From an uncultured Bacteroidales bacterium (lineage in GTDB: Bacteria > Bacteroidota > Bacteroidia > Bacteroidales > Paludibacteraceae): 64,000 nt of DNA. This document shows positions 23,301-40,098 of this stretch, piece after piece. The stretch is from contig ONEZ01000003.1 in the NCBI GenBank assembly GCA_900316995.1, forward strand, positions 1 through 64,000, in the 5' to 3' direction. The notes beneath the pieces were generated by a model, which had not been told where the DNA came from, did no database searches, and worked only from the letters and a program-made list of their open reading frames with translations. Made by a program: the position numbers and the translations under genes. Every line of letters starts with the position of its first letter. Position 1 is the first letter of the stretch.

Positions 23301-23690
23301 TACCGCCGCCTTGATGACATAAAAACAGAGGATAAACTAACAGCGTTTGAGAAGGAGCTTGAAGACCGCTTTGGCCCTATTCCTGAAGTGGCGCGTGAGC
23401 TTATTAGCGTGGTGCGACTGCGCTGGCTCTGCATGAAGTGTGGTGTAGAGAAGGCCACACTTAAAAAAGAGCGTCTCACTCTCTACTTCATAAGCAACCC
23501 TGACTCCATATACTATCAGTCAGACAACTTTAACAATATGCTCCTCTACGCCATGAACCACCCCCAGACCACCCAGTTCAAAGAAGACGGAGCCAAACGC
23601 TACATGACAGTGCGCCACGTTCAGACTATTGCAGATGCGCTCCACTGCCTGCAACAATTAACAGTTCGCACTATAAATCAGCGTGATTAA
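20376..23690 (+). CDS. mfd: Transcription-repair coupling factor
   Basis: Mfd of 1104 residues, an ATP-driven translocase that removes RNA polymerase stalled at DNA lesions and recruits UvrA. The N-terminal UvrB-like region contains YEPGQFSVRGSLIDVFSY and PYRIDFWGDDIDTIRSFD. The RNA polymerase-interaction domain is near 420-480 (GDYIVHVDHGVGKFGGL). The helicase core has Walker A GDVGFGKTEIA (~568), IDEEQKFGV (DEEQ box), TATPIPRTLQ and, further on, ATSIIESGVDIPNVNT and QLRGRVGR. The C-terminal regulatory domain is present. Full length for the family. Its last 20 nt overlap the convergent TIGR02757 gene. Confidence 0.97.
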   Translation: MDIGEFQKHFERHDAVKRISEWLESRQKNLFIKGLIGSAPAVFLHNAGIGAGRSIVFILHDEEEAGYFYNDLQQYDKSGRVLFFPSSYKKRIKEGMQKDAANQVLRTETLNICNTTENWAVVTYPQALTEKVVSRKNLSSETLHLSVGEKVDLQFVIDTLTEYGFEQTDFVYEPGQFSVRGSLIDVFSYSNDLPYRIDFWGDDIDTIRSFDIENQLSVESLDQISIISNTVNESIENLVPVTEFMSEDTVMCLFDAKFTFDTIEQVRAANPDSEKFMEASEFEEFVRLHRSIEVGGANYFKTRNTIEAHQSPHPVFHKNFEFAADDFKEKQLNGYKVFVLSDNPKQTERLKDIFEDKQYNIKFLPVTSTLHEGFIDNDVKICVYTDHQIFDRFHKYSLKSNKTRAGKVVLSLKELMQFQIGDYIVHVDHGVGKFGGLIRMETGGKVQEMIKLIFKDDDIIFVNIHSIHRISKFKGREGEAPRLNKLGSAAWNNLKQKTKSKVKDIARELILLYATRKQEEGFRYSPDSYLQQELESSFLYEDTPDQSKATIAVKEDMESAKPMDRLICGDVGFGKTEIAIRAAFKAATDSKQVAVLVPTTVLAFQHYKSFSRRLKRFPCRVDYLSRARKASDIKEIKKEVEEGKIDILIGTHKLLSKDLKFKDLGLLIIDEEQKFGVAAKEKLRQMRASVDTLTLTATPIPRTLQFSLMGARDLSIIATPPPNRYPVQTELIGMDDDIIKEAIEYEISRGGQVFFVNNRISNLPELEIYLHSLVPKARICVGHGQMDSEKLEEILLNFINGEYDILLATSIIESGVDIPNVNTMFINNAQHFGLSDLHQLRGRVGRTNKKAFCYLITPPLSTLPTDSRRRLQAIENFADLGSGIHIAMQDLDIRGAGNILGGEQSGFIADLGFETYHRILDEAIYELKHVEFKDVFAEEIKKEDKVYATDCVFESDLELLFPAEYIESVSERMDLYRRLDDIKTEDKLTAFEKELEDRFGPIPEVARELISVVRLRWLCMKCGVEKATLKKERLTLYFISNPDSIYYQSDNFNNMLLYAMNHPQTTQFKEDGAKRYMTVRHVQTIADALHCLQQLTVRTINQRD

Positions 23691-24426
23691 TTCCAACCCC
23701 AAAAAGAGCAAAATCAAAGCGTGTGGGGTCTGATGGGTCTAAGAGGCGCAGGTTTGCAGTTATCTCCTCCACAGCTTTCCAGTCATTCTGCTTACGTTTA
23801 AGCAGTCCAAGTCTTCGGCCGATGTTACCACTGTGCACATCAAGAGGCAGGTAAAGCGCTGATGCGGGTATTGAACTCCACAATCCAAAATCCACACCGT
23901 TTGCATCCTTTCTCACCATCCAGCGCAGATACATACAGAGTCTTTTGCAGGCAGCCCCTTTGACTATTGAGGATATGTGTTTGTCTGCGTGCGGATTATG
24001 CTCAGTGCTCAGAAACTCAGTGCGGAACTGTGCAAGCACCGCTCTAATATCATTAGACTGAGCGTATGAGCCTTCAAAGAAACCACCTATGCTGCCATAC
24101 CTTTGGCAGATGCCACGCATCATAAGAATGAAAGCCGCAAAATCCTCTCCGCTAAAGGTGCGGTGTACAAAGGTTTTAAGGCTCTCCACATCACGGGCGG
24201 AAGCGTTCATCACAAAATTATAAGGTTCACGGCCAAGGTAGTCCATCATGCGGTTGGCGCTCTTTACTATGGCCTTACGATTACCCCAGGCAATAGTGGA
24301 GGCAAGCAGCCCGCTAATTTCAATATCCTCCTTGCGGCTGAAAGAGTGAGGTATGCTTATAGGGTCAGGCGCAATAAACTCGGGAGTATTGTATCTTGCA
24401 TAAAGCGTTTCAAGAGTGTTTTTCAT
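23671..24426 (-). CDS. TIGR02757 (DUF2400) family protein
   Basis: A 251-residue protein of the TIGR02757/DUF2400 family, widespread in Bacteroidota and of unknown biochemical function. Family features are IPHSFSRKEDIEISGLLASTIAWGNRKAIVKSANRMM near the N-terminus, the charged Arg/Lys-rich CKRLCMYLRWMVRKD, and the C-terminal LPLDVHSGNIGRRLGLLKRKQNDW block and DPTRFDFALFGVG. The helix-hairpin-like D(V)H..N..R motif recalls DNA glycosylase-like folds, which is a guess. It overlaps the TonB-receptor gene upstream by 4 nt (ATGA) and mfd at its 3' end by 20 nt. Confidence 0.87.
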   Translation of the reverse strand: MKNTLETLYARYNTPEFIAPDPISIPHSFSRKEDIEISGLLASTIAWGNRKAIVKSANRMMDYLGREPYNFVMNASARDVESLKTFVHRTFSGEDFAAFILMMRGICQRYGSIGGFFEGSYAQSNDIRAVLAQFRTEFLSTEHNPHADKHISSIVKGAACKRLCMYLRWMVRKDANGVDFGLWSSIPASALYLPLDVHSGNIGRRLGLLKRKQNDWKAVEEITANLRLLDPSDPTRFDFALFGVGINHADL

Positions 24427-26420
24427 AGCACAAAATTAAGTATCGCCCTGAAGTTTGTACCGGGCATTGGATAGCTCTTTACAACCTCATACTGCTGGTT
24501 AAACAAGTTGTTAACCTGTATGGAGGCCTTTAGTTTGCATCGGCTGAAAGTATGAGAGTAAGAGAACGCAATATCATGCGTGTACCACGGCTGCACGTAG
24601 TTTACAGGTATGTTCGCCGATGATTCATATCGCTCGCCCGTGTAGATAAAGCTGTAGTTAAGATTGAATCCTTTGTATGATAGGTTTCCCGTGGCGGAAC
24701 CGCTGTGCCACGGAGTGTAAGGAAGCTGACCACCGTAGTACTTGCTGTCTTTGCTGTAGCTGACATCGGCGGCCACCTGATAAGAGTACGCCAAACGCAG
24801 GTCAAGAGTCCAGTGGGTAGCCCACTCCAAGCCTAAATCAACCGATACATCCACGCCATACATCTGCACCTTGCCGTAGTTCTTCATCTGCCAGCGGAAA
24901 AGATTAGCCGCAGGTATGGCCACAATTTTGTTCTCCACATAGTTATAGTAGCCGTCAGCCTGAACCGCAAAATTAGCAAACACACTGCCAGCACCAGTAT
25001 ATTGATAGGAAACGCCCGCATCATACTGATTTACATACTCAGGTTCCAGATTTGTATTACCTATATTGTTGTAGTAGAGGTCATTGAATGTAGGCATACG
25101 GAAGATGCGCTTGTAAAAGGCACGGATGTCAAACGGCACACGGCTCCACGGCCTAACACTCAATATGGCGGCAGGGGTAACCACATTATGGTTCTTGCCC
25201 GCCTTGCCTCTCTTAACGCTCTCCTGAGTGAACGTACCAAGCACACTTGCCTGAAACTTCACATTGGGATGCTTGAACGTGGTAGCCACAGCCACCAATT
25301 CCGTATATCGTGACGGGAATGAGAAATTCCTCACATTAGACTCCAAGTAGTTATACTGGAAATCAGTGGCCACAGAAACGTTCCACCAGTTGAATATCTT
25401 ATAGTTCACCGCCCCCGATGCGTAGGCCTCATGCTGGTAATAGCTGTCATCAATGTATTGAAGCGTGAGGTCTGGGTTAAGGTAACGGGTGTAGTCATAC
25501 GCATACTTGGCATTAGCCTGAAATCCTAACCGACCATCAAGGTACGTCTGCTTGTACGAGGCCTGTGCAAACAGATTGTTGTCCCACTGACGCTGCTTAT
25601 GCTCATACACATTACGCACCACATACCCTGGCAAGCCACGATATGAATTATAGTTATACACCCTCACCTTCCACTCGCCGCCCTTGACATCGCCGAAGAG
25701 TGCCGCCTCAGTGCGTACAGCAGTAATGTCAGCGTTCTCACGCACAGCCACCGTGTCATACAGTACCTTGCCTGTCTTATCCACCTTCTTGTAGTGGAAC
25801 TTGTAACGGCCGTCAGCGTATGTGTATTCAGCACTTACATTCAGAATAACGCTCTTGCCTAACTTCTGATTGTAAGTAAAACTTGGATTCACCATTCCAA
25901 AGCTACCAGCCTTCATCTTGAGGTCAACATTATAGTTGCGGTCAAAATTGAATGTAGGACGCTTGGTGGTAAGATATATAGTGCCCGCTGCACCATAGTC
26001 CTTTGCACTTTGGAGCTCTGAGCATCGCTGCCCGTTATAGAGGTCAATGGCCTCTATGTTATCAAGAGAGTAACGTCCCAAATCCACTTGTCCGTTCTGA
26101 GCATTGCCAATCTGAATGCCGTCATAGAACACGCCCATCTGATTAGTGCCCATATTACGCACATTTATGGTTTTAAGACCGCCCACACCGCCGTAGTCCT
26201 TTATCTGCACACCAGAAAAGTAGCGTATGGCATCTGCCACACTCTGGCAGCTGAGGTTTGCCAGCACGGTGGAGTCCATGCCTTGGTACGGCACTATCTC
26301 ACGCTTTATTCTCTTAGGGGAATAGCACACCTCACCAAGCTGATATACCTTAGTGGTGTCAAGCTGCGCCGATGCAAACACGGGCAGAAGCATTAGCAAT
26401 ATGAGGAAATGGTGCTTCAT
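24423..26420 (-). CDS. btuB: TonB-dependent receptor, BtuB-like (probable corrinoid importer)
   Basis: A 665-residue outer membrane TonB-dependent receptor with signal peptide (MKHHFLILLMLLPVFASAQ). The plug is at ~45-155 (SVADAIRYFSGVQIKDYGGVGGLKTINVRNMGTNQ), followed by a 22-strand barrel with the terminal aromatic NLFNQQYEVVKSYPMPGTNFRAILNFVL. There is no N-terminal carboxypeptidase-like domain, unlike SusC. Length and plug fit the BtuB group. The neighbouring BtuG-like lipoprotein and cobalamin riboswitch support corrinoid transport. It is separated from the riboswitch operon by 153 bp with a palindromic repeat and has its own -7 box, so riboswitch control is uncertain. The start is unambiguous. 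Confidence 0.72.
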   Translation of the reverse strand: MKHHFLILLMLLPVFASAQLDTTKVYQLGEVCYSPKRIKREIVPYQGMDSTVLANLSCQSVADAIRYFSGVQIKDYGGVGGLKTINVRNMGTNQMGVFYDGIQIGNAQNGQVDLGRYSLDNIEAIDLYNGQRCSELQSAKDYGAAGTIYLTTKRPTFNFDRNYNVDLKMKAGSFGMVNPSFTYNQKLGKSVILNVSAEYTYADGRYKFHYKKVDKTGKVLYDTVAVRENADITAVRTEAALFGDVKGGEWKVRVYNYNSYRGLPGYVVRNVYEHKQRQWDNNLFAQASYKQTYLDGRLGFQANAKYAYDYTRYLNPDLTLQYIDDSYYQHEAYASGAVNYKIFNWWNVSVATDFQYNYLESNVRNFSFPSRYTELVAVATTFKHPNVKFQASVLGTFTQESVKRGKAGKNHNVVTPAAILSVRPWSRVPFDIRAFYKRIFRMPTFNDLYYNNIGNTNLEPEYVNQYDAGVSYQYTGAGSVFANFAVQADGYYNYVENKIVAIPAANLFRWQMKNYGKVQMYGVDVSVDLGLEWATHWTLDLRLAYSYQVAADVSYSKDSKYYGGQLPYTPWHSGSATGNLSYKGFNLNYSFIYTGERYESSANIPVNYVQPWYTHDIAFSYSHTFSRCKLKASIQVNNLFNQQYEVVKSYPMPGTNFRAILNFVL

Positions 26421-26428
26421 ATTTTTTG

Positions 26429-26436
26429 CAAAGTTA
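26429..26436 (-). promoter_or_regulatory. Bacteroidota -7 box for the BtuB-like receptor
   Basis: TAACTTTG on the minus strand, 8 nt before the ATG at 26420. It suggests independent, nearly leaderless transcription of receptor and TIGR02757 gene. Confidence 0.58.
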
Positions 26437-26446
26437 CAAAAAAACT

Positions 26447-26558
26447 CACGTCATTCTGAGGGCTTTGCCCGAAGACGTATTGATGAACACGTAGTGTGAA
26501 TAATCTCACAATAGTTGCGAGATCCTTCGTTTCATTGCATTCCACTCAGGATGACGTG
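26447..26558. repeat. Dispersed palindromic repeat, copy 1
   Basis: Long imperfect inverted repeat with arms CACGTCATTCTGAG (26447-26460) and CTCAGGATGACGTG (26545-26558). The interior contains CGAGATCCTTCGTTTCATTG. It lies between the DUF4465 gene and the BtuB-like receptor gene. It could act as a partial transcription barrier. Confidence 0.85.
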
Positions 26559-26573
26559 GGTTGTAACTGTCAA

Positions 26574-27608
26574 TTATCTAACAGTCTGCACACCGCTTTC
26601 TGTTACAATCTTGGTGATGTATGAAGCAGAACTGTCAGGCAATTCAAAGAAGCCGTCAGTTACAACGCTCTTTGCAATAATCTGACCAGCAAGGTTGTAA
26701 ACTATAACCTCTGCACCACTTGGGATTGCATAAATAGTATTACCCATACGATAAGGTTCAACCTCAGCACTTAGGGTAGATCCACCAGTCGTATCATCAT
26801 AAGTTACAGTAAATCTGTCCATACAGAAATAAGATGCGGTATTCAAGAATCCGTATGCCATATCAGAACCCTCAACTGTAAAGTAAACCTCATCAACCTC
26901 GCCAAGACTGCTCAAGTCAAACCACTGCCAGCCACGTAAAGCTGTCACTCTGCCGTCATTGTACTCACCCAAGATAAACTCTGCGGTATTACCCTCAACA
27001 TCATTTCTAACACCGTGAGCAGTAATTTTCAGAAAATCACCATCTTTAGAAAATGCAGTTGCAAAATCATCACCCTCAACGACACCATAATACGCCTGCG
27101 GATGAGCTGCGATATAAACACCTTTAGCAGTGTATGTATTTGCATCTTTAAATGATATATTAAGAGATTTGGTGTCTGTCATCAAATCAGAATAATAGTC
27201 ATAATATGCAACCAAATAAGGAGCATCCGCACTTACAGTAGGTACTCCACCCTCAATATCACTTATTCCGCCTTTTGCCATACAGCCCCACTGATTTGCA
27301 GTCCAGCCACCTTCTGCAGAAATCATATTCTTCTCAGAGGCGTTTTTGCTTATAGTGAAACCGTTCCATGCGTCACCAGAAGAGTAATGTGTAGCACTAT
27401 GCTGCAATTTAAAAATCTGAAAATCTATTGTAGGATAGTCTGTTGTATTGAAAGTCTGATCCCAATAGAGTTTTTCCGCATCATAAGTAATTGTTGCTGG
27501 AACTGTTGGATTTGTCAAGTCAAGAGCGACCTCTTTTTCCTCAGCTAAAACACTTGTAGCAAATGCTGCGCATATTGCCACAACAAAAAGTTTTGTAAAA
27601 TTCTTCAT
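26574..27608 (-). CDS. DUF4465-containing secreted protein
   Basis: A 344-residue exported protein with signal peptide (MKNFTKLFVVAICAAFATSVLA). A DUF4465-like beta-sandwich lies at ~50-270. Diagnostic segments are AWNGFTISKNAS, DFLKITAHGV, GRVTALRGWQWFDLSSLGEVDEVYFTVEG and YGFLNTASYFCMDRF. The C-terminal ~70 residues (GAEVIVYNLAGQIIAKSV) resemble a type IX secretion sorting domain. DUF4465 proteins recur in cobalamin-regulated loci of Bacteroidota; their ligand is not established. It is fourth in the riboswitch-controlled operon, 12 nt after the next gene upstream, and the last before the repeat element. The giant protein at 29916-36110 ends in the same domain. Confidence 0.82.
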   Translation of the reverse strand: MKNFTKLFVVAICAAFATSVLAEEKEVALDLTNPTVPATITYDAEKLYWDQTFNTTDYPTIDFQIFKLQHSATHYSSGDAWNGFTISKNASEKNMISAEGGWTANQWGCMAKGGISDIEGGVPTVSADAPYLVAYYDYYSDLMTDTKSLNISFKDANTYTAKGVYIAAHPQAYYGVVEGDDFATAFSKDGDFLKITAHGVRNDVEGNTAEFILGEYNDGRVTALRGWQWFDLSSLGEVDEVYFTVEGSDMAYGFLNTASYFCMDRFTVTYDDTTGGSTLSAEVEPYRMGNTIYAIPSGAEVIVYNLAGQIIAKSVVTDGFFELPDSSASYITKIVTESGVQTVR

Positions 27609-27620
27609 AAGTTTAAGATT

Positions 27621-28724
27621 TTAAAGTTTGATTATTTTATATGATTTGTTGTCTGTGCGTAGAATATATGTACCCTTGCCAAGGTCAGAAGCAAGGATGC
27701 GGTTTGTACCCTCTGTAAGAGTTGCGTTAAGCCTGCACTTGCCGCAAAGATCATAAACAGCGGCGGAGCAAGGATGTGTGGCCACCAGAACAATCTCATC
27801 TGAGAACGGGTTAAGCACAAAGCTTACAGCCTCAGCCTCCTCCACAGCAGAAGCCTCAGGATGCAGATCCTCAGCCCCGCCAATCTCAGTGGAGGTTTCA
27901 CCTAACAATCCGCACACCTGGTTTTCACCATTGTGTATGCGTATAAAATCAATATGTGAGAGGTTGGCAGGAGTGCCGTCAGCCTTTACAGCCCAGGAAA
28001 TGTCTATCTTAGCATTTTCATCATCATTTTTCTGATTATCTGCATATCCGTAAGCAAATGCAGGCAGTTTCCACATCTCGCTACCCTCATCATAAAATGC
28101 ATTTTTAGGGAGAAGAGTGCCTCGTAGTGTATAGCTCTCATCAGTAATCCACTGCGGATAATAAGACTGCTTATGGTATGTATTTTTAGGAATAAACCCT
28201 TCTCCGCCGAGGTTGTCCGTCCAACGGATATATTCATCTATGGCAATTGTTGCAGCGTCATCCTCGGCGGAGGGTTTATAATAGGTTATCTCATAATTCA
28301 GCACAGTGCTCTTATTGCCGTACTCACTACCGGCTATCTCAAACCAAGTGTCATCAGGCAGGCCGTTGCCGTTCTCATCTTGCATCACCATAATAACACC
28401 TGGCTCAGCATTGCCGGCAAAGGCGTTACCATACACCAAAAAGTCTTTCTGACCCTCTACGTTCACTATAGAGTGGTCAAAGCCCACAGTAACGTAGCCT
28501 CCAAAGGCCCCAAGGCATATCAGAGAAGCAGGCGCTCTACCCACAAGAGCAGTATTAACCTTTTCAAGCATAGAGGCCTCAGTATCTCCCTCTGTATATG
28601 CAGGCATAGTGTTAATAAACTGACCCGGAGCTGGCACAAACTCATAAACCTTGTTTATGTACGGCGATACGGCAAATGCTGCAACAGAACAGAATGTAAA
28701 TAACAGAGTAAAAAGTCTTTTCAT
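27621..28724 (-). CDS. Cell-surface protein of the B12 locus with type IX-like C-terminus
   Basis: A 367-residue exported protein (signal peptide MKRLFTLLFTFCSVAAFA). The body resembles the PKD-like 'cell surface proteins' often found in Bacteroidota cobalamin loci: YINKVYEFVPAPGQFINTMP, LICLGAFGGYVTVGFDHSIVN, FLVYGNAFAGNAEPGVIMVMQD and WFEIAGSEYG. The last ~75 residues (AVYDLCGKCRLNATLTEG, GKGTYILRTDN) look like a type IX secretion sorting domain. A Ca-like acidic loop (DENGNGLPDD) is visible. It lies 3 nt below the BtuG-like gene, so the two are coupled. A role in corrinoid capture is inferred from location. Confidence 0.78.
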   Translation of the reverse strand: MKRLFTLLFTFCSVAAFAVSPYINKVYEFVPAPGQFINTMPAYTEGDTEASMLEKVNTALVGRAPASLICLGAFGGYVTVGFDHSIVNVEGQKDFLVYGNAFAGNAEPGVIMVMQDENGNGLPDDTWFEIAGSEYGNKSTVLNYEITYYKPSAEDDAATIAIDEYIRWTDNLGGEGFIPKNTYHKQSYYPQWITDESYTLRGTLLPKNAFYDEGSEMWKLPAFAYGYADNQKNDDENAKIDISWAVKADGTPANLSHIDFIRIHNGENQVCGLLGETSTEIGGAEDLHPEASAVEEAEAVSFVLNPFSDEIVLVATHPCSAAVYDLCGKCRLNATLTEGTNRILASDLGKGTYILRTDNKSYKIIKL

Positions 28725-28727
28725 ATA

Positions 28728-29903
28728 TTATTCTCCTTTCTTTCTTAAAAACGCAATACAGGCAGGAATGTCACCCGTATCGGCTTTCCATTTCAAAGTG
28801 CCGTCAGCATTAAAACAATAGAGCACTCCAGGCGATACAAAATCTGTAGCGTCCCCAATCATAAACTCTCCAGCATGACGATACACCCCTATGGCGTACG
28901 GCACACGTATCTTAGCATCAGTGCCGTCCTTTATAAAGTTCTCAGATACAACAGCCTTGGCTTTTGTGTTGATTATCTTATAGCCAGTCTCGCTCATAAA
29001 ATCAGTGTATATCACGTAGCAGGAGTCACCAGACATCCAGATATTAGACGCACCAATGCCGTAATCCTTCACTATGGTCTCCGTTTTAGGATCCCATGCA
29101 ATAACCGTGGGAGGTATGTACGGCAGCGGTGGGTCATGTTGTGGGTACGCATGGTAGTTACCTCTGGATGTTATATAGAGCAGTCCGTCAGAACTTACAG
29201 CCACACGGTCCATATTAGTGAGCAGATGCTCCACCTTCTTAATCTCAGTCATGGAGGCAAGGTCAATAATGGAGAGGCGGTCATCATACTCAGGCTGTAG
29301 GTAGCCGCCTGAGTTAGCCACGTATGCCTTACCGTCAAGTACGGCTATGCCGTCAGGATTATAGCCAACATTACATCTGCGGCCTGTAAGAGTGAGAGTT
29401 ACAGTGTCTATCTCTGCCACATAGCCAATCTCCTCATCCCCAATTGACTTGGCACCAGCGTATGATGTAACGTATGCCTTGCCGTTATAGAAAGCAATGT
29501 AACGGCAGTTAGGTATGCTTATGGCAGTTATATGAACCGCAGTGGCCGCGTCCATAATCTCCACAAGGTTAGAGCAGTTAATCACAGCGTACATCTTGCC
29601 ACCGTAAATCTGCAGGTCATTACCCACATCGCCGAGCTCCTTTACCACACCAGGATTACGGTCAGGATAGATATTACGGCTATATGTGCCCGTGGTGTAG
29701 CTAAAGTAGTCCAAAGTAGCCTTGTTTGAGCCCATATTGCCTTGATTAAGCAAGTAGAAACCCTCACACTCCGCACTTGCGTCAGGCGGCGTAACAGGAT
29801 CAACCTCAGGGTCAGGCTGAACAGGTTCCTTACCACGGCATGATGTCAGCAACATCGCCGTGGCAAGCAACACATAAAGTATACGCAAAAATGATTTCAA
29901 CAT
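28728..29903 (-). CDS. btuG: BtuG-like corrinoid-binding surface lipoprotein (DUF5074)
   Basis: A 391-residue lipoprotein with lipobox LLTSC (Cys22) and an acidic proline-rich linker (PVQPDPEVDPVTPPD), followed by a seven-bladed beta-propeller. Its N-terminal EGFYLLNQGNMGSNKATLDYFSY, blades such as DVGNDLQIYGGKMYAVINCSN and GYNPDGIAVLDGKAYVANSGG, and length all fit DUF5074/BtuG. BtuG of gut Bacteroides binds B12 and cobinamide at extreme affinity and pairs with BtuB as a lid. It is second in the cobalamin-riboswitch operon, 12 nt after the giant gene. The propeller alone is not specific; the riboswitch and the BtuB-like receptor make the call. Confidence 0.8.
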   Translation of the reverse strand: MLKSFLRILYVLLATAMLLTSCRGKEPVQPDPEVDPVTPPDASAECEGFYLLNQGNMGSNKATLDYFSYTTGTYSRNIYPDRNPGVVKELGDVGNDLQIYGGKMYAVINCSNLVEIMDAATAVHITAISIPNCRYIAFYNGKAYVTSYAGAKSIGDEEIGYVAEIDTVTLTLTGRRCNVGYNPDGIAVLDGKAYVANSGGYLQPEYDDRLSIIDLASMTEIKKVEHLLTNMDRVAVSSDGLLYITSRGNYHAYPQHDPPLPYIPPTVIAWDPKTETIVKDYGIGASNIWMSGDSCYVIYTDFMSETGYKIINTKAKAVVSENFIKDGTDAKIRVPYAIGVYRHAGEFMIGDATDFVSPGVLYCFNADGTLKWKADTGDIPACIAFLRKKGE

Positions 29904-29915
29904 TATTTGTTATTA

Positions 29916-32900
29916 TTATTTAACTCTGCGACCATATAAATCATAGCGTACGCCATCAGGACGGACTATGTATATAACACCGTTCTCCAAAATCTTATAT
30001 GCACCCTTAACAGCATCCGCCGTCTCTGGCACAGATGTAGGAACAGGTGCCTCTCCTCCAAAGTTATCCAGACAGAAATATGTAGGAGTTGTAAAGCCGT
30101 ATGCATTTGACTTGGTTGAATATATTTCAAACTCAATACGTGTAACGGCTCCAAGCTCGCTAAGGTCAACCCACTCCCATTTGTCCAGTGCAAAGTGCTC
30201 AGTAGCATCATCACTGCGATAATCAGCAAGATAGAATACCACTTCATTAGTCTTATCACCACCATTATAGCCAGTGATGGTTACGCTGTAGTAGTCACCC
30301 TGAGAGAACGGACCATGTTCATAATCTCCGTTGAGGATGGCATCAAGGGTATATGCACTGTTTGTTATATAGAAACCGGTTACAGTCTGAGGCTCGTTAC
30401 TATTAGTGAATGTTATAGGGTCATTGTATCCTGCAAACCACGTAGATGGAGCGGAATAGTATGCTACAGCAAAGTTATCACCCTCGTATGAGCCGCCGGC
30501 TGCAGAGCGGTATTGATCTACGCTATAGTCACCTGTTGCCTCAGAAGAACGGTCTGCACTGATAACGTAACCGCTGTATGCCTTCCAAGATTTGTTAGGA
30601 ACATTGGCAAAAGCGAATGTTCCGCTATACAGATTTGTCTCTGTATTATCAACCCAGGCGTCATCTACCATTTTGTGTTCACCCTCAGCAAGGTCATACT
30701 CCTCAAAGGTAGCCACATCAGCGCTCTTTGAAACCAGAACATGAGCTGAAACCAATGCAGTTTGACCAAACTTGTCAGTTACAGTGCATACATACTCTGT
30801 TGAATTTGATACATTAGCATTTAGAGTGGCTTCAGTTCCAATCTCCTCATTGCTAAATGCAGTGCGCCATGAATAAACGTACGGTTTGGCCTGATCATAC
30901 TCATGAACCAGCGTAGCTGTCAGAGCCACATCAGAGCCCATATCTACGGTCTGAGTTGGTATGGCGTTAAGTTCAACAGGACGCAATGTCCATGGAGTAG
31001 TGAACTCCTCTGAGGCTGCAACATCAGTTGCCATCTCACCCATAGGAGATTCAGTTACCACGTACGCCTTATAGGTTGTCTCTTCTATAAGATTCTTAAT
31101 GGTGAGGCTTACTTCAGCATTCTTTGAGAGGGTCAGCACCTCACCGTCAGAGATAACAGTCTCCACAGTAGGAGCAGCTATGTCAGATGTAAACACAAGA
31201 ACGTATGCCGTACCAAAGTTATCCGCCTTTATAGCTACGTCAGCTTCAACGTCTTTAACATTAACAGCCTTAGGATAGCCCTCTGCCAATTCAGGTATAC
31301 GGAAATTATCCTCATCATACTCATACGCACCAATAGTAGGTGTAAGAGCACGCTCTTTACCAGTAATATCTGTAGTAACAGTTGCTATAGGTGTTGCAGA
31401 TACCAGACTACCCTTCTGTTTAGGGATGAGAAGTTCGCTCGATGCAAACACTGCCTGCTCATAATGGTTATTCTCCGATGTTATGTTCTCCAGCTCCTCC
31501 CATGCCTCAAAGGTGTCAGCCTGATTGCTGAACTTGCCAGAGAGAGCGAAGAATGCATTGCTCTTATATGTACCCTTTGCAAATGTGGCACTTGCATAGA
31601 ATGCTACAAGACCAGTGCCTTCACTACTATTCTGCATAATATTATTAGTGGCGGCAAGCACCATGTTGGCAGCGTTGTAAATGGCAATAGGAGCACTGTT
31701 AGTTCCTGGAGAATTTACAAGGAATGTGTTATAGTACATATTTACATCTCTCAGCCACTTAAAGTAGATAGCTGAAGACAGCGATGTTGTAGCAGCGGTA
31801 ACACTTACGGCGTTATTTACAATATTTACGACTGTACCTTCAGGAATGTTTGATGCTGATGACGGCGCAATATAGATGGCACTTGCATAATTAGAACCCT
31901 CCAATACAATATTGTTGGCCTCAATGTTAATTGTTCCCTCAATCTTGGTGCGAATATCAATTGCACGGAAATCAGACTGAGAGAAGTTCTTGTTTGTCAT
32001 TGTATTGCCCTCAATTGCCAAGTTATTTATCATCACACCATAAACCATCTGCTTCTCCTGATTGGCGAATGTATTGTTACGGATTATTATGTCATGCTTG
32101 TTTGGATGGGTGGCATAACTTCCTTGTGCAAGGTCCACACCAACGTATCCGCCTTGAAGAGTGGAATTCTCCAAAGTGAAGTAGTTGTTCTCCTTATTGT
32201 CCTCATCTGTAGATATCAGTCTCACAAGGTGGTTGTTCTGCGATGTAGCCTGCCCTGACACTGATGTCTTTAGCACACAGCCGTCAATGGTGATATGCTC
32301 ACTCTGGTTTTTAAGCACTACGTTGGAAGCATATCCTGTTTTCTCAGTCTGGATTGTAATATTCTTAAGAGTGAAGTAATCTGCACCGTCAAGTGTCCAG
32401 ACACCTTCAGTGTCGCTTGTATCGTCATTTTGGAAGACCACATCGGCGGCATTGCCAGTTTCAGACTGGAATGTAATGGTTGCATCGGCGGAAGTGCCTA
32501 ATACCGGAGAGAGTGTAACCTTCTCATTGTAAGTGCCTGAAGCAATATTGAACACCACATTACCCTCTATGCCAAGAACACCCATAGCATCAACTGCGGC
32601 TTGAACGGTTTTGAAATCTGCCTCAGCACTGCTGCCAATAGTGTATGAGCCCTTCATACCGTGAGCCAGTTTGGTAGCAGCCTCTTCACTTACAGTAGGC
32701 ACAATATCCACACCAGCAGATGTCACCTTGTCAACAGATACCGTCATCATATCACCGTCAGATGCGTCAGAATCAGCATCGGCGGTAACCCAGAAGTAGT
32801 AAACACCACGCTCACTAACAGTATATGGGGATATAAACTCATTTAAGTCTGAGAATGTGGAAATCTTATCTGTATAGAATATCTTGATGGCGGACGTATG

Positions 32901-35900
32901 CTCACCTGCTGACAAGGATATAGCGTCTATTGTCAGAGGAGTCCTGTCGCCAGATACAGTAACTGCCACTTGCAGCATCTTTATATCTTTGGCGCCCACC
33001 GTCTGCATTGCAGGAGCAATAGATGTGGAGGTTATGTCATCGATGCTAAGGTCAGTAAGCAGATGACGGCGTATTTCAAACTCAAAACCACTATTCACCG
33101 TATAACCACCGTCCTTAAAGTAAACTGTAAGAGAACCGTCCTGAGCAGCGGAGATTACAGAAAGACCTTTATACTTCTCAGGGTCAGAATAGTTATACTC
33201 CACTACAGCATCAGCCTCGCCCTCATGCGTTGCACCGCTGTATATGCTTACAACCGCACCGTTTGACAAGCCGTAATCATTTACAATAAGTTCTATTGCA
33301 TACCCCTCGCCTTGAGGCTTAAAGGTTACATAGCCTTCAAATTTTGATGTATATTTACCATCGGCTCCACCATCGTCATATAGCACAAGACTGTTTTCAC
33401 CTATAGTCACTGTGCCGTTATCACCAGCAGCAAGTAACATTACATTCTTAATAACACGGCTGCCGTCAGGGTCTCCGTTTTCAACTGGGACATCTGTGCC
33501 AGTATTGATTGCCGTAAGTTTAGCGTCAACAATATCGTCTATGACAGCATCATCTTTAACATCAACAGCCACCACAAAACTGTTGGCTCCTTCTGAGAGT
33601 TCCACATCAGACTCCAGAGTAAGAGTAACTGTTTCAACAGCGTCAGCTGATGCCAGCACATCTCCGTTAGCATCAAGCAGATAAGCCTTGGAGATATTAC
33701 CCTCCGTGCCTTTAAGATTTACAGTTGCGCTATGAAGCTTAATTGGATTTAGAGTTCCCTCTGTATTGAGTGTAATATTAAGCAGAGCTGCTTTGCTCTC
33801 CCCAAGCTTGACAAGAGCTGTGCTAGCCTGCTCCACAGCAACATTGCTCAGAGTCATGTCACGGAGTGTGTACTCTGTAACAGATGCGTGCCAGCCATTG
33901 CCAGTGTAATAAGAGGATGTGGTGTTTGGATTAAATACAATGGTAATAGCACCGTCAGTTGATGTAGAACGAATCTGCTCAGGATTTTTCCCATTGCTGT
34001 CCAGCTCCCAAAGTTTCTCACCCGATGTCCCCTCTCCAGCATACACCACATATTTTGCTCTGACACCAGAATAAGTGGATGATGAGTAAGTTACATCAAA
34101 GTCTGTGTAATCTATTTGAATTACATTCCCACTGTGCATTGGTCTGAACACAACAGTCTGGTTGCAATCCTCAGCAGCATATTTAGAGCTGTATTCACTT
34201 GCCACTGTGTGAGTATATTGCCATGTCTCCTGAATGTCAAAAGTCTGAGTGCCGCAAGCCTGAATAGCAACATTCTCTACGGTAAGACCGCCCTTTGCAT
34301 TAACAAAAGTAGTCTGCTCGCTATCATTAGTGAAAGTAAGTTTCTCAAATACCACATCAGCTTTCTGACCATTTACAGCAGTAGTGGCCACGTCAGCCGC
34401 AATCCACAGGTAGTTATCACCCTCACGGAATGGCACATCAGCACCGGCATTCAAAACAACATTGTCAGCCGTAACCTCAGCCTCAGCTATAAGATTTGCA
34501 GTGGAGAATTTGTTATCCTTTGTGTAATAGAGATAAAGCTTGCTTATTTGCTCGTTTGTTCCGTTAGTGTTAAGCGCCAGGCTCTTAACGGAAAGTGCTG
34601 GTTCTGTATTAACGGCAGTTAGATAAATGGAAGCAATCTGCACGCCTTTGGCACCTGCCGTAACATTGGCAGTCACCTTGCTGTCTGTCATAGAGCTTAC
34701 AACCATAGCCTGAGGAGTGAACTCATCAACCACGGCAGTCCAGCCATTCTTTAGATTACTGTCATAAGATATATTACATTTGTGGGTGATTGTAAGTTTG
34801 CCGTCCGCAGCAGTAGAGCGGATAAGAATATCAGATGTAGAGCTTGCAGTAGCCTGGCTTATCTCCCACAAAAGGTCCGCATCGGCGGTGGAATTACCGT
34901 TATAAACCTTTATGTAATCCACATAACCAGAAGAACTTGCGGCATAATCAGTATAGAATACATCTATGGTTTTAAAAGTAAGCGCAACCTTTTTACCCTC
35001 AGTGGCAGGAACAAATACACTCTTGCCGTCAAAGCCCTTAATCACCTTACCGTCAGGGCCGCCCTCATCGTAAAAATTGGTGGGCTGACTTACAGTATAA
35101 GTGGCATCAGCAGCCATAATGTACATAGGCTGAACAGTCAGCGTGGCAGCCGTGGCTGGTGTATAGTCTGTGAATCCGCCGACAGTGGCGATGCCTGTAA
35201 CGTTTATCTCCGCCTCTGCATTAAAGGGAGCGGAAGATAGTATGTCAGCGCCAAGGCAGAATTTGTTTTCTCCATTGCCAAATGCGTATGGCGTAGTAAG
35301 AGTATAAGTGTACACACCCGCATTCTCAGTTATCTCGCCATCTATCTTAGAAAGTGAGGCCACCGATGCAGCCATGCCTGCATACAACCTGACATCCAAC
35401 GGATTTACAATCGCCGCATTGTTGCATGTAAATGTTATTGACTGCAATTTATCCGGCGATGAATACCCCTCAGTGGTAATTATAAAACCTGCAACTTCCA
35501 CATTTTTCTTATCCGCCCACACTTGAGTGTCAACATCTGAGTTGTCACCCTTAGCACTGCTCACAGTCATGTCTTCAAGTTTAACGGCTGAAACCGTTGC
35601 TTTCCACCCTCTGCTTCTTGCCGCATAGCGATAATGGAAGCATACAGAGAGAGCACCTGTTGAGCTGCCTGAAACAAATGACTCATTAGAGAAGGTACCG
35701 TTTTCATAGTGCTTAAGAGGTGTGGCATAATCCTTAAACGGAGTTGTATTGCTACCTACTGAGCTTGGGTACTCTCCTCCGTTTACCAAGGATTTATCAA
35801 ACACCCCGTCAAAAACATCAAGGTATGACACCCAGCCGGCGCCATCATCACTAACATCCACATACTCAAAAGATACTGAGATGCTATACCCCTCATCAGC

Positions 35901-36110
35901 AGGAGTAAACACTACGGTTGAGTAACTGTTGCTTGACGATGATGAAGGGATGTCATCCTCTCCCTTAAAATCATAAAACGTAACAGGGGCGTCCTTTGAA
36001 ACAGACTTTGTCTCATATCCCCACTGCGGCATCAGATAATCCTCTGCATACGCAACGCAGCACAAGCCACTCACAACAAGTGCAGCAAAAAGAAGTAGAT
36101 TTTTTCTCAT
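29916..36110 (-). CDS. Giant multidomain surface protein of the B12 locus
   Basis: A 2064-residue exported protein (signal peptide MRKNLLLFAALVVSGLCCVAYA), first gene behind the cobalamin riboswitch. Four CUB-like domains lie at about 40-170, 340-465, 620-750 and 905-1018. Each is followed by a BNR-neuraminidase-N-terminal-like module (for example MVVSSMTDSKVTANVTAG and MTLSNVAVEQASTALVKLG). A right-handed beta-helix follows at ~1150-1600 (FKTVQAAVDAMGVLGIEG). Then come a fibronectin-like module (~1600-1700), an Ig-like one (~1705-1800), a DUF4465 domain (~1807-2020) and a short tail VRYDLYGRRVK. No lipobox. No catalytic motif is recognised. The order suggests an adhesive or binding scaffold secreted to the surface, possibly by type IX secretion. 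A role in corrinoid capture is inference from the riboswitch. Confidence 0.8.
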   Translation of the reverse strand: MRKNLLLFAALVVSGLCCVAYAEDYLMPQWGYETKSVSKDAPVTFYDFKGEDDIPSSSSSNSYSTVVFTPADEGYSISVSFEYVDVSDDGAGWVSYLDVFDGVFDKSLVNGGEYPSSVGSNTTPFKDYATPLKHYENGTFSNESFVSGSSTGALSVCFHYRYAARSRGWKATVSAVKLEDMTVSSAKGDNSDVDTQVWADKKNVEVAGFIITTEGYSSPDKLQSITFTCNNAAIVNPLDVRLYAGMAASVASLSKIDGEITENAGVYTYTLTTPYAFGNGENKFCLGADILSSAPFNAEAEINVTGIATVGGFTDYTPATAATLTVQPMYIMAADATYTVSQPTNFYDEGGPDGKVIKGFDGKSVFVPATEGKKVALTFKTIDVFYTDYAASSSGYVDYIKVYNGNSTADADLLWEISQATASSTSDILIRSTAADGKLTITHKCNISYDSNLKNGWTAVVDEFTPQAMVVSSMTDSKVTANVTAGAKGVQIASIYLTAVNTEPALSVKSLALNTNGTNEQISKLYLYYTKDNKFSTANLIAEAEVTADNVVLNAGADVPFREGDNYLWIAADVATTAVNGQKADVVFEKLTFTNDSEQTTFVNAKGGLTVENVAIQACGTQTFDIQETWQYTHTVASEYSSKYAAEDCNQTVVFRPMHSGNVIQIDYTDFDVTYSSSTYSGVRAKYVVYAGEGTSGEKLWELDSNGKNPEQIRSTSTDGAITIVFNPNTTSSYYTGNGWHASVTEYTLRDMTLSNVAVEQASTALVKLGESKAALLNITLNTEGTLNPIKLHSATVNLKGTEGNISKAYLLDANGDVLASADAVETVTLTLESDVELSEGANSFVVAVDVKDDAVIDDIVDAKLTAINTGTDVPVENGDPDGSRVIKNVMLLAAGDNGTVTIGENSLVLYDDGGADGKYTSKFEGYVTFKPQGEGYAIELIVNDYGLSNGAVVSIYSGATHEGEADAVVEYNYSDPEKYKGLSVISAAQDGSLTVYFKDGGYTVNSGFEFEIRRHLLTDLSIDDITSTSIAPAMQTVGAKDIKMLQVAVTVSGDRTPLTIDAISLSAGEHTSAIKIFYTDKISTFSDLNEFISPYTVSERGVYYFWVTADADSDASDGDMMTVSVDKVTSAGVDIVPTVSEEAATKLAHGMKGSYTIGSSAEADFKTVQAAVDAMGVLGIEGNVVFNIASGTYNEKVTLSPVLGTSADATITFQSETGNAADVVFQNDDTSDTEGVWTLDGADYFTLKNITIQTEKTGYASNVVLKNQSEHITIDGCVLKTSVSGQATSQNNHLVRLISTDEDNKENNYFTLENSTLQGGYVGVDLAQGSYATHPNKHDIIIRNNTFANQEKQMVYGVMINNLAIEGNTMTNKNFSQSDFRAIDIRTKIEGTINIEANNIVLEGSNYASAIYIAPSSASNIPEGTVVNIVNNAVSVTAATTSLSSAIYFKWLRDVNMYYNTFLVNSPGTNSAPIAIYNAANMVLAATNNIMQNSSEGTGLVAFYASATFAKGTYKSNAFFALSGKFSNQADTFEAWEELENITSENNHYEQAVFASSELLIPKQKGSLVSATPIATVTTDITGKERALTPTIGAYEYDEDNFRIPELAEGYPKAVNVKDVEADVAIKADNFGTAYVLVFTSDIAAPTVETVISDGEVLTLSKNAEVSLTIKNLIEETTYKAYVVTESPMGEMATDVAASEEFTTPWTLRPVELNAIPTQTVDMGSDVALTATLVHEYDQAKPYVYSWRTAFSNEEIGTEATLNANVSNSTEYVCTVTDKFGQTALVSAHVLVSKSADVATFEEYDLAEGEHKMVDDAWVDNTETNLYSGTFAFANVPNKSWKAYSGYVISADRSSEATGDYSVDQYRSAAGGSYEGDNFAVAYYSAPSTWFAGYNDPITFTNSNEPQTVTGFYITNSAYTLDAILNGDYEHGPFSQGDYYSVTITGYNGGDKTNEVVFYLADYRSDDATEHFALDKWEWVDLSELGAVTRIEFEIYSTKSNAYGFTTPTYFCLDNFGGEAPVPTSVPETADAVKGAYKILENGVIYIVRPDGVRYDLYGRRVK

Positions 36111-36159
36111 ATATTTTGTTTTAGGTCCTATACCACGAGGACGGTTAAACGTACTGAGA

Positions 36160-36345
36160 TTGGCAGGTCTTCTGACTTGGCTCAGCCTCTACGCCTTCCC
36201 AAACCATTTAGGTTCAGTGGCCTTGGGGTTAGAGGCTCTGCACTTTAATGCAGCGTTGAGCCTTACAGCAGCGGGTCTGTCCAGGATTTTCACCTGATTC
36301 CCTTTTAATTACGCACGGCGGCCGCCCTACGTAACACCAATATCA
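36160..36345 (-). promoter_or_regulatory. Cobalamin (AdoCbl-class) riboswitch
   Basis: Minus-strand leader with the conserved core of the cobalamin riboswitch: GGGAATCAGGTGAAAATCC (from 36302), AGACCCGCTGCTGTAA (36278-36263), the B12 box GCCACTG (36221-36215) and the 3' GAAGACCTGCC (36172-36162). It opens just after a strong promoter and ends ~50 nt before the giant gene's ATG. The expression platform has a small hairpin GTCCT / AGGAC (36143-36126) but no T run, so control is probably at translation initiation. It governs the four-gene operon down to 26574. Confidence 0.95.
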
Positions 36346-36350
36346 GAGCG

Positions 36351-36358
36351 CAAAGTTA
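36351..36358 (-). promoter_or_regulatory. Promoter of the riboswitch operon
   Basis: TAACTTTG on the minus strand as -7, with TTTG (36381-36378) exactly 19 nt upstream. The riboswitch starts within a few bases of the expected start site. Confidence 0.72.
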
Positions 36359-36389
36359 TATCAAATATCTGATAATTCAAAAAAAATAT

Positions 36390-36397
36390 TATATTTG
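36390..36397 (+). promoter_or_regulatory. Bacteroidota -7 box for the GH97 gene
   Basis: TATATTTG, 25 nt before the ATG at 36423. It lies about 30 bp from the divergent riboswitch promoter, so the two overlap in upstream sequence. Confidence 0.62.
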
Positions 36398-36407
36398 CAT
36401 TTTGTAA

Positions 36408-40098
<3,691 letters not shown>

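Follow-up and report, generated by a model that had tools for sequence, protein, structure and literature searches.

Within the 64,000-nucleotide (nt) stretch analysed here (the window), from an uncultured Bacteroidales bacterium, a cobalamin riboswitch on the minus strand precedes a set of closely spaced genes, the first of which encodes a 2064-residue multidomain protein (hereafter the giant) whose role is very probably B12 scavenging. In gut Bacteroidetes, the small surface lipoproteins BtuG, BtuH, BtuJ and BtuK are known to take part in B12 uptake. The giant carries a BtuJ-type DUF4465 domain near its C-terminus, behind an array of CUB and CBM93-like domains and a right-handed beta-helix (Table 1). 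In the mechanism that we favour, with a probability of about 0.72 for the whole, B12 shortage would permit expression of the operon, as expected for this riboswitch family. The giant would leave the cell via Sec and then probably via the type IX secretion system (T9SS), and would stay at the cell surface on a long arm. Its front half, formed by the CUB and CBM93-type array and the beta-helix, would act as an adhesive arm holding it on a glycan or partner where corrinoids are met. The DUF4465 head would bind B12 in the known BtuJ pocket, and the BtuH-domain protein and BtuG/BtuB receptor encoded in this operon would take over the captured corrinoid.

The DUF4465 head was recognised by a Pfam match at residues 1841–2017 (E 4.8e-44; 151.2 bits against a cut-off of 25) and by the augmented jellyroll fold of its structure, all structures used in this work being predictions. 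B12 binding has been shown for eight DUF4465 proteins with identities down to 16%, the six newly tested ones being those that expressed, as stated in parts of PMC13398666. Passages of PMC12751083 give a dissociation constant of 0.16 nM for BtuJ1 and show BtuJ1 and BtuJ2 touching B12 via Tyr146, Asn241, Thr242 and Tyr245 (BtuJ1 numbering). The giant residues matched to these by motif are Y1920, T2007, T2008 and Y2011, respectively. The HI-loop tyrosine and threonine (Y2011, T2008) and the DE-loop tyrosine (Y1920) of the pocket are kept. Among 67 family rows (L096, L121, L124 and L128 having been dropped beforehand), tyrosine occupies position 2011 in all 67 and threonine position 2008 in 60; position 1920 is tyrosine in 55 and tryptophan in 10.

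Relatives were searched in named Bacteroidales genomes with an alignment of giant residues 1–1750, DUF4465 being left out on purpose, and with the pattern [LIM]T[IV][VK]FN[PA]NT, which lies within CUB domain 3 (CUB3). The 215 pattern matches gave 124 relatives, and the best 80 of these 124 gave 73 loci. Eight loci cut by a contig end (L087, L091, L122 and L138–L142) stand outside the riboswitch count; in whole-genome riboswitch maps, each of the 65 assessable loci has a same-strand cobalamin riboswitch upstream. Direct Rfam rescans confirmed it in 17 of the 17 loci rescanned, and a direct scan places that of L125 at 105–322. The remaining 48 were scored by the whole-genome maps and a motif count, for which at least five motifs occur in 375 of 20,000 random segments. 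The giant starts no more than 420 nt from the riboswitch in 48 of the 65 loci (median 212 nt). At the other 17, a BtuH-type gene lies in between (13 loci), or a longer btu series (L105, L127), or no recognised gene (L117, L123).

Of the proteins examined, 71 in all from 70 loci and the window, 68 have DUF4465, within the last 480 residues in 67 and further in for L124; one of those without it, L121, is cut by a contig end. The giants are mostly about 2000–2400 residues long, and their named hosts include Bacteroides salyersiae, Prevotella pectinovora, Hoylesella marshii and Xylanibacter muris. The riboswitch-mapped genomes overlap those of earlier relative sets, and the counts were not summed. 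The initial annotation had suggested that the giant may capture corrinoids and had named homologues lying mostly away from B12 loci as contrary evidence. The opposite distribution was observed, and capture is now strongly supported, as far as sequence can tell, by the BtuJ-family domain and by the position of all assessable loci behind riboswitches.

Two further arrangements were seen among the loci. L074, L075, L077, L086, L092, L093 and L095 have two riboswitches, one before the giant and one right behind it; the second, confirmed by direct scan at L075, precedes either a small DUF4465 gene or additional btu genes. Other DUF4465 builds occur at L058, L062, L063, L065, L069, L070 and L054–L060, namely fusions of a BtuH domain with DUF4465 (607–785 residues) and proteins of 1098–1408 residues with a long front part that has no match to the giant.

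Which part of the giant the B12 link follows was judged from a control draw of 393 genomes of the order, with matches in 74, of which 51 were mapped for riboswitches with stricter filters. At least G704 and G355 of this draw correspond to loci L103 and L137, and G000 and G021 were omitted as already counted. All 10 genes whose match reaches the CUB domains had a riboswitch upstream; they form 11 contig groups, since one gene continues on a second contig and its distal part makes up a group. Where the match covered the beta-helix only, a riboswitch was upstream in 8 of 60 groups, the other 52 showing no same-strand riboswitch within 12 kb upstream. All eight riboswitch-linked helix-only relatives pass Pfam for DUF4465 and for the T9SS tail (PF18962); a DUF4465 profile that recognised 8 of 8 of them matched none of the 20 stretches tested around riboswitch-free helix-only matches, out of 52. 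A B12 link borne by the beta-helix alone was therefore rejected. These counts show that the link tracks the DUF4465 head and the CUB array, the beta-helix being a shared module.

The eight riboswitch-linked helix-only relatives are short forms of 1060–1438 residues (L144–L151, from eight genomes) that consist of beta-helix, DUF4465 and T9SS tail, with no CUB or PF14873 match. They suggest a core of beta-helix and DUF4465, perhaps represented by the short forms, which the CUB-CBM93 array extends. The beta-helix might instead be an active polysaccharide lyase or epimerase that opens a glycan matrix and frees bound corrinoids. We consider this very improbable: the helix shows no function by being shared, it occurs in large riboswitch-free proteins in the 52 groups above, and it is among the less conserved parts of the giant (see below). 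As a separate observation, a single open frame of 11871 residues (G405:C35) contains two copies of the beta-helix module, with no same-strand riboswitch within 12 kb upstream of them.

Conservation was compared domain by domain as mean Jensen–Shannon divergence (JSD), the front and back halves coming from different alignments of 54 and 56 rows. CUB3 ranked highest (0.579), followed by DUF4465 (0.537) and CUB domain 2 (0.520); the other domains reached 0.39–0.48, with 0.417 for the beta-helix. Part of the CUB3 value is an effect of the search pattern located there; without the pattern residues (715–731) it was 0.564, still the highest. In 14 giants not picked by the pattern, mean pairwise identity was 0.594 in CUB3 as compared to 0.389–0.537 in nine other domains, DUF4465 lying outside this alignment. 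Since CUB3 is constrained as much as the B12 head, it probably has a specific partner. Candidates for the partner of the front half are glycans, given the CBM93-like neighbours, a B12-bearing carrier or vesicle, and BtuH or BtuB of the same cell.

The first PDB match of the front half in Foldseek was cubilin bound to intrinsic factor-cobalamin (E 1.5e-12). One may therefore ask whether the giant is a bacterial cubilin, its CUB domains binding a B12-carrying protein or vesicle (intrinsic factor, haptocorrin or the B12-loaded surface protein of another bacterium) from which DUF4465 takes the vitamin. The CUB-type domains in series and the top conservation of CUB3, with or without the pattern residues, agree with this idea. 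However, any row of CUB domains would give cubilin such a rank, and mimicry by a shared assembly was rejected, as judged by the poor superposition over the array (root-mean-square deviation 23.6 Å). The relatives come from gut, oral and other bacteria; those from records such as CTSoil_027 make it less likely that host carriers are the usual target. Overall we regard this explanation as improbable. The initial annotation had also put forward corrinoid-bound carriers; capture of host B12 carriers found no support and is weakened by the same records. Less improbable, though still doubtful, is that the CUB-CBM93 array itself serves as a receptor, in which CUB3 (and CUB domain 2) would bind a corrinoid-bearing partner, such as a glycoprotein carrier, a vesicle or the B12-loaded protein of another cell, and present it to DUF4465. 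If true, this would make the giant a bacterial functional counterpart of cubilin, and giant receptors under riboswitch control would form an entire class found throughout Bacteroidales.

Export was examined with crude patterns in 63 relatives: a hydrophobic stretch together with AxA was present in 33, and a lipobox in none. C-termini of the family match TIGR04183 in 22 of 71 and Por_Secre_tail in 19 of 71 proteins. C-terminal targeting motifs are known on DUF4465 proteins, 229 of 824 carrying IPR026444 according to sections of PMC12751083. The source genome encodes PorU (1138.7 bits). As 237 of the 250 family genomes have PorU, its co-occurrence says little, and the T9SS was dropped as a discriminating marker. 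A shed or vesicle-borne cobalophore could also be imagined: released or carried on outer-membrane vesicles, the giant would gather B12 at a distance from the cell, a role that has been put forward for vesicle-bound BtuJ in B. thetaiotaomicron. The missing lipobox agrees with release, and BtuJ1 and BtuJ2 are described as acting on vesicles in portions of PMC12751083; nevertheless, a long arm with adhesive-type domains would suit attachment better, and we hold this possibility to be unlikely.

Several observations weigh against the surface scavenger that we favour. In the pocket, the position of BtuJ1 Asn241 is threonine in the window giant (T2007), as in 41 of the 67 rows, asparagine being found in 22. 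Among the CUB domains of the window giant, CUB3 alone passes Pfam. The P. gingivalis CBM93 module bound weakly on a glycan array, as reported in excerpts of PMC10553830. The tail of the window giant gave no TIGR04183 or Por_Secre_tail match, and Dysgonomonas (G291) has a giant and no PorU above cut-off. Many loci lack any other gene recognised by the four btu queries. Finally, L096 (1627 residues) and L128 (1716 residues) have no DUF4465 at E 0.01 and retain the front part and the riboswitch, a hint that the front part may serve some separate function connected with B12. These two relatives, together with the large adhesin-like build, would also be compatible with an adhesin whose DUF4465 has lost B12 binding, riboswitch control being a by-product of operon position. 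The pocket tyrosine found in every row counted argues against this reading, as does the closeness of riboswitch and giant, often with no recognised btu gene near, making this the explanation in which we place least belief.

The source genome can probably use B12, since open frames of 719 and 1113 residues contain B12-binding domains above cut-off. Many of the genes that respond most strongly to B12 in X. ruminicola KHP1 lie near cobalamin riboswitches (PMC11575231, in part), and a hand-over order BtuJ to BtuH to BtuBG has been proposed for B. thetaiotaomicron (PMC12751083, in part).

The riboswitch matches the whole RF00174 model (positions 1–189 of 189) well above the gathering score of 31.5 bits. 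Upstream on the minus strand, TTTG (36381–36378) is separated by 19 nt from TAACTTTG (36358–36351). The Bacteroides promoter consensus is TTTG-N19-21-TAnnTTTG, with which we take this site to agree. Three further minus-strand open reading frames follow the giant gene, encoding 391, 367 and 344 residues; the intergenic gaps measure 12, 3 and 12 nt. A consensus scan of 23600–36450 gave 4 terminator-like sites compared to 8.9 expected from shuffles, i.e. below chance. One of them (28782–28754, minus strand) is close to the 3′ end of the BtuG-like gene. No plasmid copies were found by megablast.

Within the giant, Pfam also matched BNR_assoc_N (PF14873, E 2.7e-11) and CUB (E 6.7e-5); the CUB domains were recognised by sequence or fold, the CBM93-like ones (beta-sandwiches 2 and 3) by PF14873 or the NanH-module fold, and the beta-helix by fold. 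The relative L124 has four PF14873 stretches. In the sister genome G015, the giant (L037 8431–14525; also L072) is broken into two reading frames of 1468 and 580 residues, either a pseudogene or an assembly error.

Table 1. Features of the riboswitch-controlled operon and domains of the giant.
Feature	Position	Strand	Basis
Promoter-like site TTTG-N19-TAACTTTG, Bacteroides type	36351..36381	-	read from sequence
Cobalamin riboswitch aptamer RF00174	36145..36356	-	103.7 bits, full model
Giant protein P0001, 2064 residues, first operon gene	29916..36110	-	open reading frame
Signal peptide region, residues 1-22, no lipobox	36045..36110	-	sequence
CUB-like domain 1, residues 23-178, approximate boundaries	35577..36044	-	model; only multi-domain CUB rows start here, residue 36
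Beta-sandwich 1, CBM93-like by repeat order, residues 179-318	35157..35576	-	order and strands; no match by itself
CUB domain 2, residues 319-465	34716..35156	-	
CBM93-like domain 2, residues 466-605	34296..34715	-	
CUB domain 3, residues 606-748	33867..34295	-	Pfam CUB 633-730
CBM93-like domain 3, residues 749-884	33459..33866	-	
CUB domain 4, residues 885-1017	33060..33458	-	
Beta-sandwich 4, CBM93-like by repeat order, residues 1018-1150	32661..33059	-	order and strands
Right-handed beta-helix, residues about 1151-1585	31356..32660	-	predicted fold
FN3-like region, residues about 1586-1706, approximate boundaries	30993..31355	-	model and Foldseek rows
Ig/PKD-like region, residues about 1707-1796	30723..30992	-	model; Ig and PKD Pfam matches in a few relatives
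DUF4465 (BtuJ-type) B12-binding-family domain, residues about 1797-2020	30051..30722	-	
C-terminal tail, putative T9SS sorting signal	29919..30050	-	
BtuG-like beta-propeller lipoprotein (P0002)	28728..29903	-	DUF5074 E 3.3e-14; PDB 8blw E 9e-32; LTSC lipobox by eye
BtuH C-domain protein with T9SS tail (P0003)	27621..28724	-	PDB 7biz E 4.1e-59; TIGR04183 E 1.3e-5, 25.1 against 23 bits
DUF4465 (BtuJ-like) secreted protein (P0004)	26574..27608	-	DUF4465 E 7.4e-29
BtuB-like TonB-dependent receptor (P0005), probable operon end	24423..26420	-	TIGR01779 E 1.2e-25

P0002 has the features of BtuG, namely a propeller akin to solved BtuG-type chains, a lipobox and a BtuB-like gene nearby. P0003 matches the B12-binding C-domain of BtuH2 (7biz) over residues 20–287 and the C-terminal half of 8blw (residues 391–662, E 2.7e-70). 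It has a T9SS tail above cut-off and no lipobox by eye, that is, no BtuH2-type lipoprotein signal, and on these sequence grounds we class it as a BtuH-domain protein and not as BtuH. The HI loop of P0004 is NTASYF. P0005 scored 90 bits with TIGR01779, far below the curated cut-off of 599.7, and probably belongs to the operon too, because the receptor gene of the sister genome starts directly behind the DUF4465 gene. The initial annotation was right about the complete riboswitch, the tight four-gene run, the domain content of the giant and the BtuG-like propeller lipoprotein. Its second secreted protein exists and is now identified as the BtuH-type domain protein. Its statement that internal terminators are absent is unproven: sites are scarcer than expected, but one lies near the end of the BtuG-like gene.

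Comparison with the sister genome brought two further observations. P0004 is 50% identical to its counterpart there (L037 16833–17864), against 93–99% for the neighbouring BtuG, BtuH, BtuB and giant, which suggests that this B12 binder has diversified fast or been replaced by allele exchange. In the sister operon, the genes for DUF4465 and BtuB touch where the window has, at 26430–26570, a dispersed repeat with inverted ends by eye; when 40 of 67 candidates were scored, 33 other places in its genome matched the repeat in part. This repeat may uncouple btuB from the operon. Elsewhere in the genome, two other cobalamin riboswitches precede an anaerobic ribonucleotide reductase (NRDD; L036 9990–12149) and a CitMHS-type transporter (L035 3135–4535).

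Already in print are DUF4465 as a B12 binder (2025–26), C-terminal targeting motifs on DUF4465 proteins, BtuH and BtuG. The view of the initial annotation that no role was defined for such a protein is therefore outdated for the DUF4465 and BtuH parts, and holds for the CUB, CBM93 and beta-helix part. No description of CUB-CBM93-helix-DUF4465 giants was found in the open-licence PMC literature, a scope that leaves preprints aside, and the searched text of the two DUF4465 papers (PMC13398666 and PMC12751083, each in part) mentions no CUB domain. The giants form a conserved class in which CUB and glycan-module domains are combined with a head of B12-binding type, and in many cases no btu gene was recognised alongside. 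This suggests that reaching a corrinoid source, beyond binding the vitamin, is under B12 control.

Cubilin, the CUB receptor for intrinsic factor-B12, shares with the giant several CUB domains in a B12-related protein. The giant, however, is bacterial, its CUB domains alternate with CBM93-like ones and a distinct domain, DUF4465, is the expected site of B12; the likeness is in fold only. With the CBM93 modules of Bacteroidetes sialidases (NanH, PG0352; PF14873) it shares the fold of its beta-sandwich domains 2 and 3, which here alternate with CUB domains in a protein without a sialidase domain. P0003 resembles BtuH2 and BtuGH of B. thetaiotaomicron in the two regions matched, and differs from BtuH2 in its lack of a lipobox and its T9SS tail. 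As in the BtuG/BtuB systems of gut Bacteroides, a propeller lipoprotein and a TonB receptor probably share one operon, although the order here is giant-BtuG-BtuH-BtuJ-BtuB and the score of the BtuB-like protein falls well short of the curated cut-off. The closest parallel to the head is offered by BtuJ1 and BtuJ2 (DUF4465, IPR027828) of Bacteroides thetaiotaomicron, with the same jellyroll fold, HI-loop and DE-loop tyrosines and a riboswitch-controlled btu operon. The BtuJ proteins are small lipoproteins, whereas their counterpart in the giant takes up about 220 of 2064 residues, close to the C-terminus, and the whole protein has no lipobox.

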